The notes beneath the pieces were generated by a model. The model saw only the letters and a list, made by a program, of their open reading frames with translations. It ran no database searches and had not been told where the DNA came from. This document shows positions 5,505 through 41,825 of a stretch of 41,825 nt of DNA, piece by piece; the stretch's first letter is position 1, and the number at the start of each line of letters is the position of its first letter. Origin of the DNA: Bacillota bacterium (GTDB taxonomy: Bacteria; Bacillota; Dehalobacteriia; UBA4068; UBA4997); contig JAETTP010000018.1 of NCBI GenBank assembly GCA_021769035.1, positions 1 to 41,825 on the forward strand, written 5' to 3'. A program made the translations under genes and the position numbers.

Positions 5505-5701
5505 GAAAACGCCGCCCGATAGGTAAAGGGCCACGTTTCCGCGGCCCTTTTGTAATAGACTTTGGCAGGCGTCCCAGTTCCCCTGCATCTCTCATATCCT
5601 CCAATTTTTCGTTGAAAGACATTGTCCTGCCAGCGGCGTGTGGTCGGGACGAAATTTACCACCTCAAAGCCTATCCATATCCTATTAACATTATAACAAA
5701 T

Positions 5702-20117: not shown

Positions 20118-20146
20118 TTGACAAAACGCTCACGCTAATATATAAT
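20118..20146 (+). promoter_or_regulatory. Perfect-consensus promoter of a short antisense RNA
   Basis: TTGACA (20118-20123), 17-bp spacer, TATAAT (20141-20146). Confidence 0.85.
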
Positions 20147-20152
20147 ATAATA

Positions 20153-20248
20153 AAAGGCACCGCAAGTAAGCGGTTAGCCCTTAATCTCAGTTTATATTTG
20201 ATAAACCGCTACTAATGGCCGTTAGTGGCGGTTTCCTCTATGTTTTTT
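20153..20248 (+). ncRNA. Candidate antitoxin (antisense) RNA
   Basis: Starts ~7 nt after the perfect promoter; ends near hairpin AAACCGCTACTAA-tggccg-TTAGTGGCGGTTT (20203-20234) and T6 at 20243-20248. Antisense to the 3' part of the minus-strand mini-ORF transcript. Confidence 0.55.
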
Positions 20249-20302
20249 GAGCTTTATGCTGATTACGACATGGAAATGCCATAAATCAAAGCTAATACGC
20301 AT
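20222..20302 (-). CDS. 26-aa candidate type I toxin peptide (MRISFDLWHFHVVISIKLKKHRGNRH)
   Basis: ATG at 20302, TAA at 20222-20224, SD AAAGGAGGTGA with ~5-nt spacing, perfect upstream promoter, hydrophobic N-terminal half and basic C-terminus. Not in the supplied ORF track because of size. Confidence 0.6.
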   Translation of the reverse strand: MRISFDLWHFHVVISIKLKKHRGNRH

Positions 20303-20486
20303 AGGCCTCACCTCCTTTACAAGAGGTTTGGCTAACCGTTAAGTGAGCAGTTAGCGATTGCCAAGTCCTGCGAAGCTGGACGCGGGCAAAGCTTAGTGCG
20401 AACAAATACCGCAGGTGCAAAAAGGATTGTACGAAAACAAAACTTTGTCCCTGCGGTGCCTACCGTTTTGTTACGATGCCTTTTTA

Positions 20487-20515
20487 ATTATACAAACTAC
20501 TGACTGTCTTGTCAA
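20487..20515 (-). promoter_or_regulatory. Perfect-consensus promoter of the mini-ORF mRNA
   Basis: Minus strand TTGACA (20510-20515), 17-bp spacer, TATAAT (20487-20492). Confidence 0.85.
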
Positions 20516-20535
20516 GCATTACAGTCAGTTTCTTT

Positions 20536-20862
20536 TTAATTATCAATAATAAACGTACAATCTAATAATTTTATAAAATTAATAAACGCATCTAGCTGTT
20601 TGCTATTTAAACGTCTTGACAAAAGCAGCAAGTCATTTTCAATATCTAATTTGCTTCTGCCTATATTAAAGAATTCGGCGGGTGTAATGCCTAGATATTC
20701 GCAAATATAGAAAAAATTTCTCATTGACGGTAAACTTTTTCTATTTTCAATGCTATTTATGTAATTAACGCTTTGGCCGATTGACAAACTCATTTCACGT
20801 GCAGAAACGTTTTTAGCAATACGCAGTTCCGCCAGCCTTTTGGCAAAACTTTCTTCTTTCAT
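20536..20862 (-). CDS. XRE-family helix-turn-helix transcriptional regulator
   Basis: 108 aa; FAKRLAELRIAKNVSAREMSLSIGQSVNYINSIENRKSLPSMRNFFYICEYLGITPAEFF. Confidence 0.9.
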   Translation of the reverse strand: MKEESFAKRLAELRIAKNVSAREMSLSIGQSVNYINSIENRKSLPSMRNFFYICEYLGITPAEFFNIGRSKLDIENDLLLLSRRLNSKQLDAFINFIKLLDCTFIIDN

Positions 20863-20953
20863 TGCAACATCTCCTCCTATTGTTTTAATTATACACTATA
20901 ATATTAACAAAATAAACTACCAAAATGGTCGTGACAAAAAAGCTGAAAAATAA

Positions 20954-20982
20954 TTGCAATCCGAAAAAAAATGTGTTAGAAT
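20954..20982 (+). promoter_or_regulatory. Promoter of the Rpn-like gene
   Basis: TTGCAA (20954-20959), 17-bp spacer, TAGAAT (20977-20982). Confidence 0.5.
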
Positions 20983-21003
20983 AAACATAAAGCAGGTGAT
21001 TAT

Positions 21004-21834
21004 TTGGACACTAAGGAAAAACGCTGGCAACGATATTTGGCTCAAATCAAAGCATTTCGGTTGATGGACGACGATTTTATGACCAAATGCTTTGAAGATA
21101 ACACGGAATGTGTAGAATTAATGCTGCAAATCATTCTCAATAAGCCAGACTTAAAAGTTACCGAAGCCAAAACACAGGTCTTTGTGTTAAACCTCAAAAA
21201 TCGCTCCGTGCGCCTGGACGTTTTAGCCACTGACAGCCACGGCCGCAAATATAATATAGAAATTCAGCGCGCCAACAGCGGCGCAGGCTTCAAACGGGCC
21301 AGATACAACAGCAGTATGATTGATGTAAATATGCTGCAAAAAAATCAGGATTTTGCCAACCTACCGGAAACCTATGTAATATTTATCACGGAACAAGATG
21401 TAATTGGCAAAGGCCTGCCGTTATACAGAATAGAGCGTTGTAATCTGGACACCCAAGAAATAATTGATGACGGAGAACATATACTATACGTAAACGGCGC
21501 TTGTCAAAATAATACGCCACTGGGTAAGCTAATGCAAGATATGGCTAATAATGACCCAACAACTATGAATTACAGCCTTTTGGCTAAATGCGTTGATTAT
21601 TACAAAAACAGCAAGGAGGGAAACGAAACTATGTGCAAAGCGATGGAGGACCTCTGGAATGAGGCTGCCAACGAGGGCAAAAAAGAAGGCTTAAAAGAAG
21701 GCAAAAAAGAAAGCCAAAAAGAAACTGCTTTTCGTATGTTAGCTGCCGGAACTTTAACTTTGGAACAAATTGCGGAGTTTTCCGGCCTGACAATAGAAGA
21801 AGTTAAGCAAATCCAAAAGGAAAAATCCGCCTAA
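21004..21834 (+). CDS. Rpn-family recombination-promoting nuclease / PD-(D/E)XK nuclease family transposase
   Basis: 276 aa; RLMDDDFMTKCFEDNTECVELMLQIILNKPDLKV...RLDVLATDSHGRKYNIEIQRANSGAGFKRARYNSSMIDVNML; TTG start. Confidence 0.88.
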   Translation: MDTKEKRWQRYLAQIKAFRLMDDDFMTKCFEDNTECVELMLQIILNKPDLKVTEAKTQVFVLNLKNRSVRLDVLATDSHGRKYNIEIQRANSGAGFKRARYNSSMIDVNMLQKNQDFANLPETYVIFITEQDVIGKGLPLYRIERCNLDTQEIIDDGEHILYVNGACQNNTPLGKLMQDMANNDPTTMNYSLLAKCVDYYKNSKEGNETMCKAMEDLWNEAANEGKKEGLKEGKKESQKETAFRMLAAGTLTLEQIAEFSGLTIEEVKQIQKEKSA

Positions 21835-21847
21835 ACATTATAAATAA

Positions 21848-21886
21848 AAAACTACGCTTCAGCTAAGCAGTTGAAGCGTAGTTTTT
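21848..21886. terminator. Bidirectional intrinsic terminator
   Basis: ACTACGCTTCA...TGAAGCGTAGT stem flanked by A- and T-tracts, between convergent genes. Confidence 0.85.
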
Positions 21887-21922
21887 GCTTAAAATCAAAT
21901 TTTCTCTCAGAGATAATCCAAA

Positions 21923-23059
21923 TTATTTTGAAAATAACTCCATAACCATTTTTGAAATAATTTTTGCGTCTACACCATCTTTTGCACTGCAAAGTATTTT
22001 TGTAACCTTTTCTATAAACTTATTGTCTAATGCAGCTTCCACTATTTCCCTTGCCCAAGCAATATCCTTGATTGATTTTTTACCCAAAGCAATCTGTTCA
22101 AAAATAAAAATTGAACTCTCGCCCAAAGCTGCAATCATACATCCTGCCACAATCGCATTAACAGCACTAGCAGCCAATCCTACACCTGGAATAGCTTTTA
22201 TTGCCCCTATTGCAGCTTTAGCCGCAAGACCAACTGCACCATATGTTACAAGCATTTCTATAAATTTCTTAAATTCATCATTCTTATTTATACCATAAAT
22301 TGTAGCCAGGCTATTTAATAAAACAACCTCAACCGGCACTAAAATTGCAGCATCAGCAAATGGTATAGGCACAGCACCAATCACAGCTCCAGCTGTCACG
22401 GCAGTTCCAACAACCCCTTGAGCAATAACTCTTTTTCGTGTAAGCTTAATTGCTGCCATTTTAGCCTGTGCCGCTTGTAAACCCTGCGGCATAAGCTCAT
22501 TTGTAGCGTCAATTAGTTCTGTTATATCATATGGCGAAGTATAAATGTTATCATCAAATTTAATTATTTCAGTCACCACAGAAATAATTCTAGGTAATTT
22601 TTTCTGTTTTGCAAAAGCATCTCTTACCGCATAAGCATTCTCGAAATAATCTGATACAGAATAAGATTTAGTAATAGCTACAATTATTGGAACATCGGTA
22701 AAACCTGCAACAGCTTTAGCCAGATTTTGAATTGTTTTCGGAAACAATTTACTTGAAGTTCCGTCAACACAAAACCAAATTAAATTGATAGCAGCATTCG
22801 TATCTCCCTTTTGAACAGCCTCTTTAAGCCATTTTTTTACTGCGCCAATGGCTTCCCACTTCTTCAAAGAACCTAGCTCTAAGGCAACTGTATCAATCAA
22901 ACGAAAAGGCAACTCTGAATCTACATATATTTTTAGTCTTTGAGTAGTACCCTTCAGACCAAATACTACCATAGCCTTATTTTGACCCAACACGGCATTG
23001 ATAAGCGTTGATTTTCCAACACCAGAATTACCAACAACCAATACATTCCCTTTTGGCAT
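21923..23059 (-). CDS. P-loop GTPase with C-terminal DUF697-like membrane domain
   Basis: 378 aa; Walker A GNSGVGKSTL; later hydrophobic GVVGTAVTAGAVIGAVPIPFADAAILVPVEVVLLNSLATIYGI resembles DUF697/YcjF-type GTPases. Confidence 0.8.
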   Translation of the reverse strand: MPKGNVLVVGNSGVGKSTLINAVLGQNKAMVVFGLKGTTQRLKIYVDSELPFRLIDTVALELGSLKKWEAIGAVKKWLKEAVQKGDTNAAINLIWFCVDGTSSKLFPKTIQNLAKAVAGFTDVPIIVAITKSYSVSDYFENAYAVRDAFAKQKKLPRIISVVTEIIKFDDNIYTSPYDITELIDATNELMPQGLQAAQAKMAAIKLTRKRVIAQGVVGTAVTAGAVIGAVPIPFADAAILVPVEVVLLNSLATIYGINKNDEFKKFIEMLVTYGAVGLAAKAAIGAIKAIPGVGLAASAVNAIVAGCMIAALGESSIFIFEQIALGKKSIKDIAWAREIVEAALDNKFIEKVTKILCSAKDGVDAKIISKMVMELFSK

Positions 23060-23073
23060 TTCAATCTTCCCCT

Positions 23074-23178
23074 TTATTTCCTTTTAATAATGCAGTACAC
23101 GAATAATCCCAGTAACCAAGCGCCTACAGTCAACCAAACCAACGCTAAATTAACAAGCATTTTCCCAAAAGTTCTCAT
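23074..23178 (-). CDS. 34-aa predicted single-pass membrane peptide upstream of the GTPase
   Basis: MRTFGKMLVNLALVWLTVGAWLLGLFVYCIIKRK; SD AAAGGAGGT upstream; ends 14 bp before the GTPase start. Absent from the ORF track. Confidence 0.65.
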   Translation of the reverse strand: MRTFGKMLVNLALVWLTVGAWLLGLFVYCIIKRK

Positions 23179-23273
23179 AATCATACCTCCTTTAATTTAT
23201 GAATTACTGATTTTATCAGTATTCATAACAAGGCATGTTTTTTTTACGAGCAAAAACGTTGCGATCTGCTTAC

Positions 23274-24152
23274 TCACCGATAATCCAGATACTCCATAAA
23301 CCGCCGCACCGCCAACGGCGCACTTTCCCGGCTGCGCAGACAAAAAACAATATCTCGCCAGGCCGGCACCTCCAGCTCCTTAGCCACAATCCGATAAGGC
23401 ACGCGCTGCAAAATCAGCTGCGGCAAAATGCTAATTCCCAGCCCGCTTTCCACCATCGACATAATCACGTAATCGTCCCAGGTGCTGAAATGTACCTGCG
23501 GACGGATTTTATGCCGGGCCAAAATCTCCGTCACGTCAGAGCACTCGCCGCTTTCCTGCAACATAAAAGGATATTCCGCCAAAGCCGCCAGCGGAAAACG
23601 CTCACAGTCTGCCAGGGGGTGGCCCTCCGGCAAAATCACCAAGTGCTTGTCCCGCTCAAGCAGCAGCGTTTCCAAATCCGGGCTGACGGGCAGCCTCAAA
23701 AAAGCGCAGTCCACCCGGCCCTCCAAAATCCAGCTTTCAATCTCGTCGTAATCGCCCAGCAAAACCTCATATTCCACGTTGGGATAGCTCTTTTGAAATT
23801 CTCGGATAATATTAGGGAGCCAATGCGTCGCCACGCTGGAAAAGGTGCCAATGCGCAGCAGGCCGCTTTGCAGACCGTTCAGCTCGTCAACCTCCGTTTG
23901 CAGGCGTTGGCATTGCTGCAAAACCGCACGCACATGGGGCAGCAGCTTTTGCCCCTCCGCCGTCAGCTGCACGCCGCCGCGGCCACGGGCCAAAAGCGGC
24001 AGGCCCCAGTCCCGCTCCAAATCGCTAATCATACGGCTAATGCCGGACTGCGAGCATTTCAGCTCCGCCGCAGCCTTAGTAAAACTGCCGTATTCCACCG
24101 CTTTCAGCAAAGCCAAATATTTTTGCAGGTTCATATTCATGGACAAACGCAC
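23274..24152 (-). CDS. LysR-family transcriptional regulator
   Basis: 292 aa; MNLQKYLALLKAVEYGSFTKAAAELKCSQSGISRMISDLERDWGLPLLARGRGGVQLTAEGQKLL. Confidence 0.95.
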   Translation of the reverse strand: MRLSMNMNLQKYLALLKAVEYGSFTKAAAELKCSQSGISRMISDLERDWGLPLLARGRGGVQLTAEGQKLLPHVRAVLQQCQRLQTEVDELNGLQSGLLRIGTFSSVATHWLPNIIREFQKSYPNVEYEVLLGDYDEIESWILEGRVDCAFLRLPVSPDLETLLLERDKHLVILPEGHPLADCERFPLAALAEYPFMLQESGECSDVTEILARHKIRPQVHFSTWDDYVIMSMVESGLGISILPQLILQRVPYRIVAKELEVPAWRDIVFCLRSRESAPLAVRRFMEYLDYR

Positions 24153-41657: not shown

Positions 41658-41825
41658 GGCTGTTTCCAGAGTGGACGGAAGCGGCAGGCACCACATTATC
41701 GCAGGGTGCTTTTTTATTTTCGCTCGTTATAAATTACACCTGCGATATTTGTTCACACTAAGCTCTTGCTTCGCCTTTCGCTATGCTCAGGCTTGCAAAT
41801 CGCTAAGTGTTCACTTAAAACGGTA
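41658..41825 (+). ncRNA. 5' structured leader homologous to the minus-strand leader at 20335-20480, truncated by the window edge
   Basis: Shares CACCTGCGRTATTTGTTCRCACTAAGCT and the GCAATCGCTAA...CACTTAA...ACGG block with the reverse complement of 20335-20416. Confidence 0.65.

Follow-up and report, generated by a model that had tools for sequence, protein, structure and literature searches.

The window analysed here, a 41,825-nucleotide contig of a Bacillota bacterium from the Dehalobacteriia, carries at 20118-20515 a compact locus in which all the elements described by a previous sequence-only reading are present: two convergent and perfect TTGACA-17-TATAAT promoters, both with 17-bp spacers, and, on the minus strand, a Shine-Dalgarno (SD) sequence, a 26-codon ORF and a hairpin spanning its stop codon. 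The features and their evidence are as follows.

20118-20146, plus strand: P1, antisense-RNA promoter, perfect TTGACA-17-TATAAT (TTGACA 20118-20123, TATAAT 20141-20146); 0-1 mismatch in 46/46 related elements
20487-20515, minus strand: P2, peptide-mRNA promoter, perfect TTGACA-17-TATAAT (TTGACA 20515-20510, TATAAT 20492-20487); 0-2 mismatches in 40/45 elements
20153-20248, plus strand: predicted antisense RNA, placed from P1 and the hairpin, both ends being predictions; a 93-nt stretch folds with z -3.2
20203-20234, both strands: terminator-like hairpin common to the two strands and including the ORF stop codon; covarying helix 6, G-U/A-C balance outside the closing helix
20302-20222, minus strand: 26-codon ATG ORF, MRISFDLWHFHVVISIKLKKHRGNRH, candidate toxin; pN/pS 0.18 in frame among the closest copies, profile matches
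Complement of 20308-20318, minus strand: SD, AAAGGAGGTGA; near-invariant AAAGGNGGTGAG in the 29-element alignment
20310-20327, minus strand: hairpin sequestering the SD (ACCUCUU-GUAA-AGGAGGU), from the MFE structure; helices 4-5, changes mostly G-C to G-U
20330-20338, minus strand: closing helix, inner 5' arm (CGGTTAGCC); helix 3, 95% of cells paired, compensatory change at 5 pairs
20474-20480, minus strand: closing helix, outer 5' arm (GGCATCG) at the mRNA 5' end; helix 1, compensatory change at 7/8 pairs, present in the window MFE
20156-20179, minus strand: closing helix, 3' arm (GGCTAACCGCTTACTTGCGGTGCC) at the mRNA 3' end; covariation, RNAalifold and window MFE
20339-20458: second dispersed repeat within the leader, at the internal loop of the closing helix and outside the module proper; absent from many copies, alone elsewhere in the genome

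The ORF would comprise 29 aa if begun at the upstream GTG at 20311. The leader of the window copy, put at ~180 nt in the earlier reading, indeed measures 187 nt counted from the -10, but it is untypical, being long because the second dispersed repeat lies inside it; copies without this repeat have leaders mostly of about 60-110 nt. The repeat itself (AAGTGAACACTTAGCG...GCTTAGTGTGAACAAATACCGCAGGTGC...) is nested in the leaders of several copies and stands alone at many places in the genome. It also forms the right end of the window (41723-41825), where the contig breaks, and at L023 (G000:C51:14500-15838) it lies within a gene similar to the window's PD-(D/E)XK family gene. Elsewhere in the window, a Skipping-rope RNA (Rfam RF02924) is found at 5557-5672 on the minus strand (49 bits).

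Distribution and genomic sites

The locus has 23 matches in its own 2.23-Mb genome, many of them at contig ends, and a peptide profile built from the own-genome copies retrieved about 19-20 good copies there, other copies including truncated ones. The same profile recovered further copies in three genomes of the same genus (G004, G005 and G008), none in the other genomes searched from the order or class, and one copy only in the remainder of a 399-genome phylum sample. Window-type peptides are also encoded in other gut Clostridia and in 20 IMG/VR contigs, some nearly identical among themselves. Vescimonas fastidiosa MM35 has them at several places, the best being intergenic and featureless in the incomplete PLSDB gene table, and this cultured human-gut host makes the module testable. 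Searches of phage records with a gut-type peptide (tblastn) and of phages with the window element (blastn) gave no match.

In the window, the interval between panB and LysR (20118-23274) contains the element followed by an HTH gene, a PD-(D/E)XK family gene and a GTPase gene. In G004 and G008, panB is directly followed by LysR and the element is absent, while G005 has a different insert. The occupancy of this site differs between the four genomes, which marks the panB-LysR interval as a variable spot and the element as dispersed. The empty sites retain TTGACAAAA...TATAAA at the position of the window's P1. At the left end of three other copies (L013, L015 and L057), a perfect inverted repeat, e.g., CAGATTGACAAAAGCAATCTG or CACCGGGCTTGACAAAACAAGCCCGGTG, has the P1 -35 in its loop, and in three genomes a similar inverted-repeat sequence (CTGCATAGGGG..GAGGTATTC..GTACCTCAGCCC..), with no Rfam match, adjoins the element upstream (L041, L056 and L058).

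Selection on the ORF and structure of its mRNA

The coding potential of the ORF was assessed over 16 core codons in 46 distinct elements. In frame, pN/pS was 0.36 overall, 0.18 for the copies closest to the window and 0.19 for the gut Clostridia and viral copies, while the two alternative frames of the ORF strand gave 0.7-2.5; the figures are descriptive, given near-saturated silent sites and non-independent pairs. Judged from these comparisons, the small ORF is a protein-coding gene under selection. The SD and the start codon are retained throughout the 29-element alignment. The promoter equivalent to P1 has at most one mismatch to TTGACA-N16-18-TATAAT in all 46 elements with enough flank (32 of them perfect), and it is always sited 50-85 nt past the ORF stop and aimed back at the ORF; by promoter sequence, all of these copies have an antisense promoter against the candidate toxin mRNA. 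The ORF promoter is kept with up to two mismatches in 40 of 45 elements, a level reached by only 5% of shuffled flanks. That the antisense promoter is nearer to the consensus than the ORF promoter would be expected if the antisense RNA is kept in excess. The sequence-only reading had made its case depend on the conservation of the SD, the ORF and the antisense promoter in homologous loci; all three are conserved and the locus has survived this comparison.

Three structures are supported by the alignment of 29 elements (17 of the window type and 12 carrying another cargo): a closing helix between the 5'-terminal ~30 nt and the 3'-terminal ~25 nt of the mRNA, the SD hairpin and the ORF-end hairpin. 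Compensatory double changes were counted in 101 cells, compared with 32.8 in shuffles (0/500) and 15-21 with slid partners, and RNAalifold, unaided, recovered the same structure. The closing helix contains 90 G-U but only 7 A-C cells, whereas the two are balanced outside it (35 G-U and 32 A-C), which is consistent with a terminator hairpin serving both strands. Because G-U pairs hold in the ORF-strand RNA only and are mismatches on the other strand, the closing helix is best read as an mRNA structure, one that, on this covariation, would act in the ORF-strand (toxin) mRNA and is not merely a DNA inverted repeat. The window mRNA (20480-20150) folds at z -6.1 into a structure that has the closing helix as well as the SD hairpin.

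The 3' linker, which would be matched only by the antisense RNA of the same copy, shows a likeness of 0.60 between own-genus copies compared with 0.58 when shuffled. Such unlike linkers would fit copy-specific pairing and equally fit a lack of constraint. If the module is what we propose, about 20 co-resident copies in one genome would need antisense pairing of this copy-specific kind.

The many dispersed copies, their inverted ends and the lack of the element at the panB-LysR site of G004, G008 and G005 would also suit a mobile repeat of the MITE/REP kind, bounded by terminal inverted repeats and containing the promoters and the ORF only as by-products. However, the ORF is under in-frame selection, the hexamers and spacing of the antisense-end promoter are kept in 46/46 elements, the G-U bias of the end pairing (90 vs 7) is unexpected from a DNA repeat, and no target-site duplication was apparent by eye at the copies inspected, so that we consider this explanation highly improbable. 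Mobility is compatible with a toxin-antitoxin function, and the mobile repeat is rejected only as a full explanation. The narrower idea that the ends are purely transposon inverted repeats is rejected on the G-U/A-C asymmetry of the closing helix.

The 120-nt leader insertion and the truncated copies elsewhere in the genome raise a separate question, namely, whether the window copy is the degenerating remnant of a formerly functional module. This seems unlikely: both promoters are perfect, the ORF and SD are intact, the predicted fold retains the closing helix despite the insertion, and the same insertion is found in several otherwise intact copies, also in G005.

The peptide and its RNA scaffold

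In the peptide, hydrophobic and polar residues alternate, so the hydrophobic N-terminal half noted earlier is not hydrophobic in the transmembrane sense. The K/R/H-rich C-terminus is present as described, but it is partly forced, since the ORF reads through the AACCGCCAC stem of the terminator hairpin, which the copies translate in different frames (..KNRH, ..KPATRPSDRF, ..KSPLRP). The earlier reading had not recognised the peptide as a member of a named toxin family; here, no window-type peptide scored above the cut-off in Pfam, NCBIfam, PHROGs or PADLOC, and none of 14 matched Hol_Tox (PF16935) at its gathering score. Similarly, the window-type element had no Rfam match above cut-off, the PDB searched by sequence and Foldseek searched by fold returned nothing significant (as expected, in the latter case, for a fold this small), and a literature search on the peptide motif found no paper. 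In an AlphaFold2 model of a 30-residue member, strands are placed at residues 3-9 and 12-18 (pLDDT about 83-84) and the basic tail is of low confidence; with 8 sequences only and a pTM of 0.28, this model is a lead only. Window-type peptides are thus predicted to form a distinct family, an amphipathic beta-hairpin with a basic tail, for which a membrane or a nucleic acid is a possible target. They have no transmembrane helix, unlike most type I toxins, which are helical membrane peptides, RalR and SymE being cytosolic exceptions (PMC8309996; PMC6563280). Type I toxins have been found mainly via hydrophobic helices, and a family of beta-hairpins that none of Pfam, NCBIfam, PHROGs and PADLOC detects would, if true, widen the kind.

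The surrounding RNA is more widespread than the peptide. A DNA pattern of the leader only (GGTAGGCGGTTNNC-N5-35-AAAGGNGGTGAGG) was found in 32 stretches from Oscillospiraceae, Lachnospiraceae, Peptococcaceae, Defluviitaleaceae, Mogibacterium, others and one Synergistaceae bin, and also in 4 viral contigs. Some of these loci encode window-type peptides (e.g., MRITLHIGAFTVTIIVKSRNRHSAK), and most encode hydrophobic ones (e.g., MSIYEALTLLIAFAALIVTIIKDRKK), of which 4 of the 8 scanned matched Hol_Tox in Pfam above the cut-off (E 1e-8 to 1e-11). There is no Hol_Tox in the own genome, and the Hol_Tox loci of a genome from the same order show the same plan. In a single alignment, the leader, the closing helix, the SD hairpin, the ORF-end hairpin and the convergent promoter are common to both types of cargo. 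A Hol_Tox locus (L100) matched the Rfam BsrG model (RF01412) over its full length with 35.4 bits, below the gathering score of 55 (E 4e-5 in a 29-kb search and 6e-7 in a 401-base search), while the window and another locus (L094) gave no match to this model. Four loci (L067, L070, L071 and L078) combine the scaffold with hydrophobic peptides that lack a Pfam match above cut-off, e.g., MVEWVFMILALVLVLYIIREIKRK, and the scaffold may therefore have more cargo types.

Altogether, the RNA scaffold is already known and the window-type cargo is not, which makes the latter a new type of candidate toxin within an established type I architecture. Because the same scaffold otherwise carries the toxin-like Hol_Tox peptides, the window-type peptide is, by analogy, probably toxic. 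An antisense-controlled peptide with a signalling or regulatory function, or an RNA with a dual function, would account for its dissimilarity to known type I toxins (a predicted beta-hairpin with no family match). Nevertheless, the multi-copy, unannotated and polymorphic occurrence and the Hol_Tox scaffold suit toxins better, and a non-systematic look at the copies showed no shared partner gene; we regard a non-toxin role as unlikely. An antisense-controlled peptide module on the Hol_Tox scaffold, the toxic role included, is quite likely on the sequence evidence. Whether window-type peptides represent a new class of type I toxins, with 25-30 residues forming an amphipathic beta-hairpin and a basic tail and carried as exchangeable cargo of a BsrG/Hol_Tox-like scaffold across gut Clostridia, is in our judgment an even question. 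A shared scaffold would also allow more systems to be found by searching for the RNA frame, not the peptide.

Proposed mechanism and relation to known type I systems

We propose that P2, on the minus strand, would produce a ~330-nt mRNA whose ends pair in the closing helix and whose SD is held in a hairpin, both structures being supported by covariation, so that the full-length mRNA would be poorly translated. On the plus strand, the conserved P1 would drive a ~90-nt antisense RNA able to pair without mismatches over the final ~8-9 codons of the ORF and on through the mRNA 3' end. By analogy with txpA/RatA and bsrG/SR4, the duplex resulting from this pairing would disrupt the closing helix and target the mRNA to RNase III. 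A shortage of the antisense RNA (e.g., after locus loss or under stress) would allow the 25-30 residue peptide to be made.

A type I-like toxin-antitoxin module with the Gram-positive convergent 3'-overlap layout is thus the likely identity of the locus, as far as sequence comparison can tell. What stands of the original type I proposal is backed by strong conservation (the selected ORF, the antisense promoter, the covarying mRNA, the sequestered SD and the Hol_Tox scaffold), while the hok/aapA/fst layout, the classical hydrophobic helix and the notion of a single locus do not hold. Points against a toxin-antitoxin module are the lack of a BsrG match for the window type, the 120-nt insertion in the leader, the naming of Hol_Tox itself as putative and the peptide having no transmembrane helix.

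Like the window mRNA, those of hok/sok and aapA/isoA are locked at full length by a long-distance 5'-3' interaction. However, the antisense RNAs of these systems target the 5' leader, whereas P1 lies past the ORF stop in 46/46 copies and the predicted antisense RNA overlaps the mRNA 3' end, as in txpA/RatA and bsrG/SR4; the layout is therefore not that of hok/sok or aapA/isoA, to whose peptides no relation of the window type was found. In fst/par (RNAI/RNAII), convergent RNAs also meet at a shared hairpin near the ORF end, but they pair via direct repeats, while the end repeats of the window are inverted, so the two RNAs share, and do not complement, that sequence. Together with the lack of a Pfam or NCBIfam match for an Fst peptide, this sets aside the likeness to fst that had been suggested.

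The closest systems in layout are txpA/RatA and bsrG/SR4 of Bacillus subtilis, with convergent genes, a 3' overlap and an SD sequestered in the toxin mRNA, the 3' overlap at the window following from the geometry of P1, the hairpin and the ORF, with RNA ends that are predictions. The related B. subtilis antitoxins bind the 3' ends of the toxin mRNAs and promote their decay and, in bsrG, SD sequestering is extended (PMC6562991); as in the window, the main helix of the BsrG model joins the mRNA ends. In contrast, the window type does not match the BsrG model, its peptide is unrelated, and the antisense RNA predicted for it, at about 90 nt, falls short of the 163-222 nt of RatA, SR4 and SR5. The Hol_Tox loci of Clostridia (PF16935, putative holin-like toxins) have the leader, closing helix, SD hairpin, ORF-end hairpin and convergent promoter of the window. 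Their peptides have one hydrophobic segment, KKRK ends and a stop just ahead of the hairpin, whereas in the window type the ORF runs into the hairpin and polar and hydrophobic residues alternate. A precedent for cargo exchange is given by the bsrG/SR4 loci reported to encode BsrE/H instead (PMC6562991), and our observations suggest, beyond this replacement in Bacillus, an exchange of cargo within one conserved RNA frame across Clostridia.
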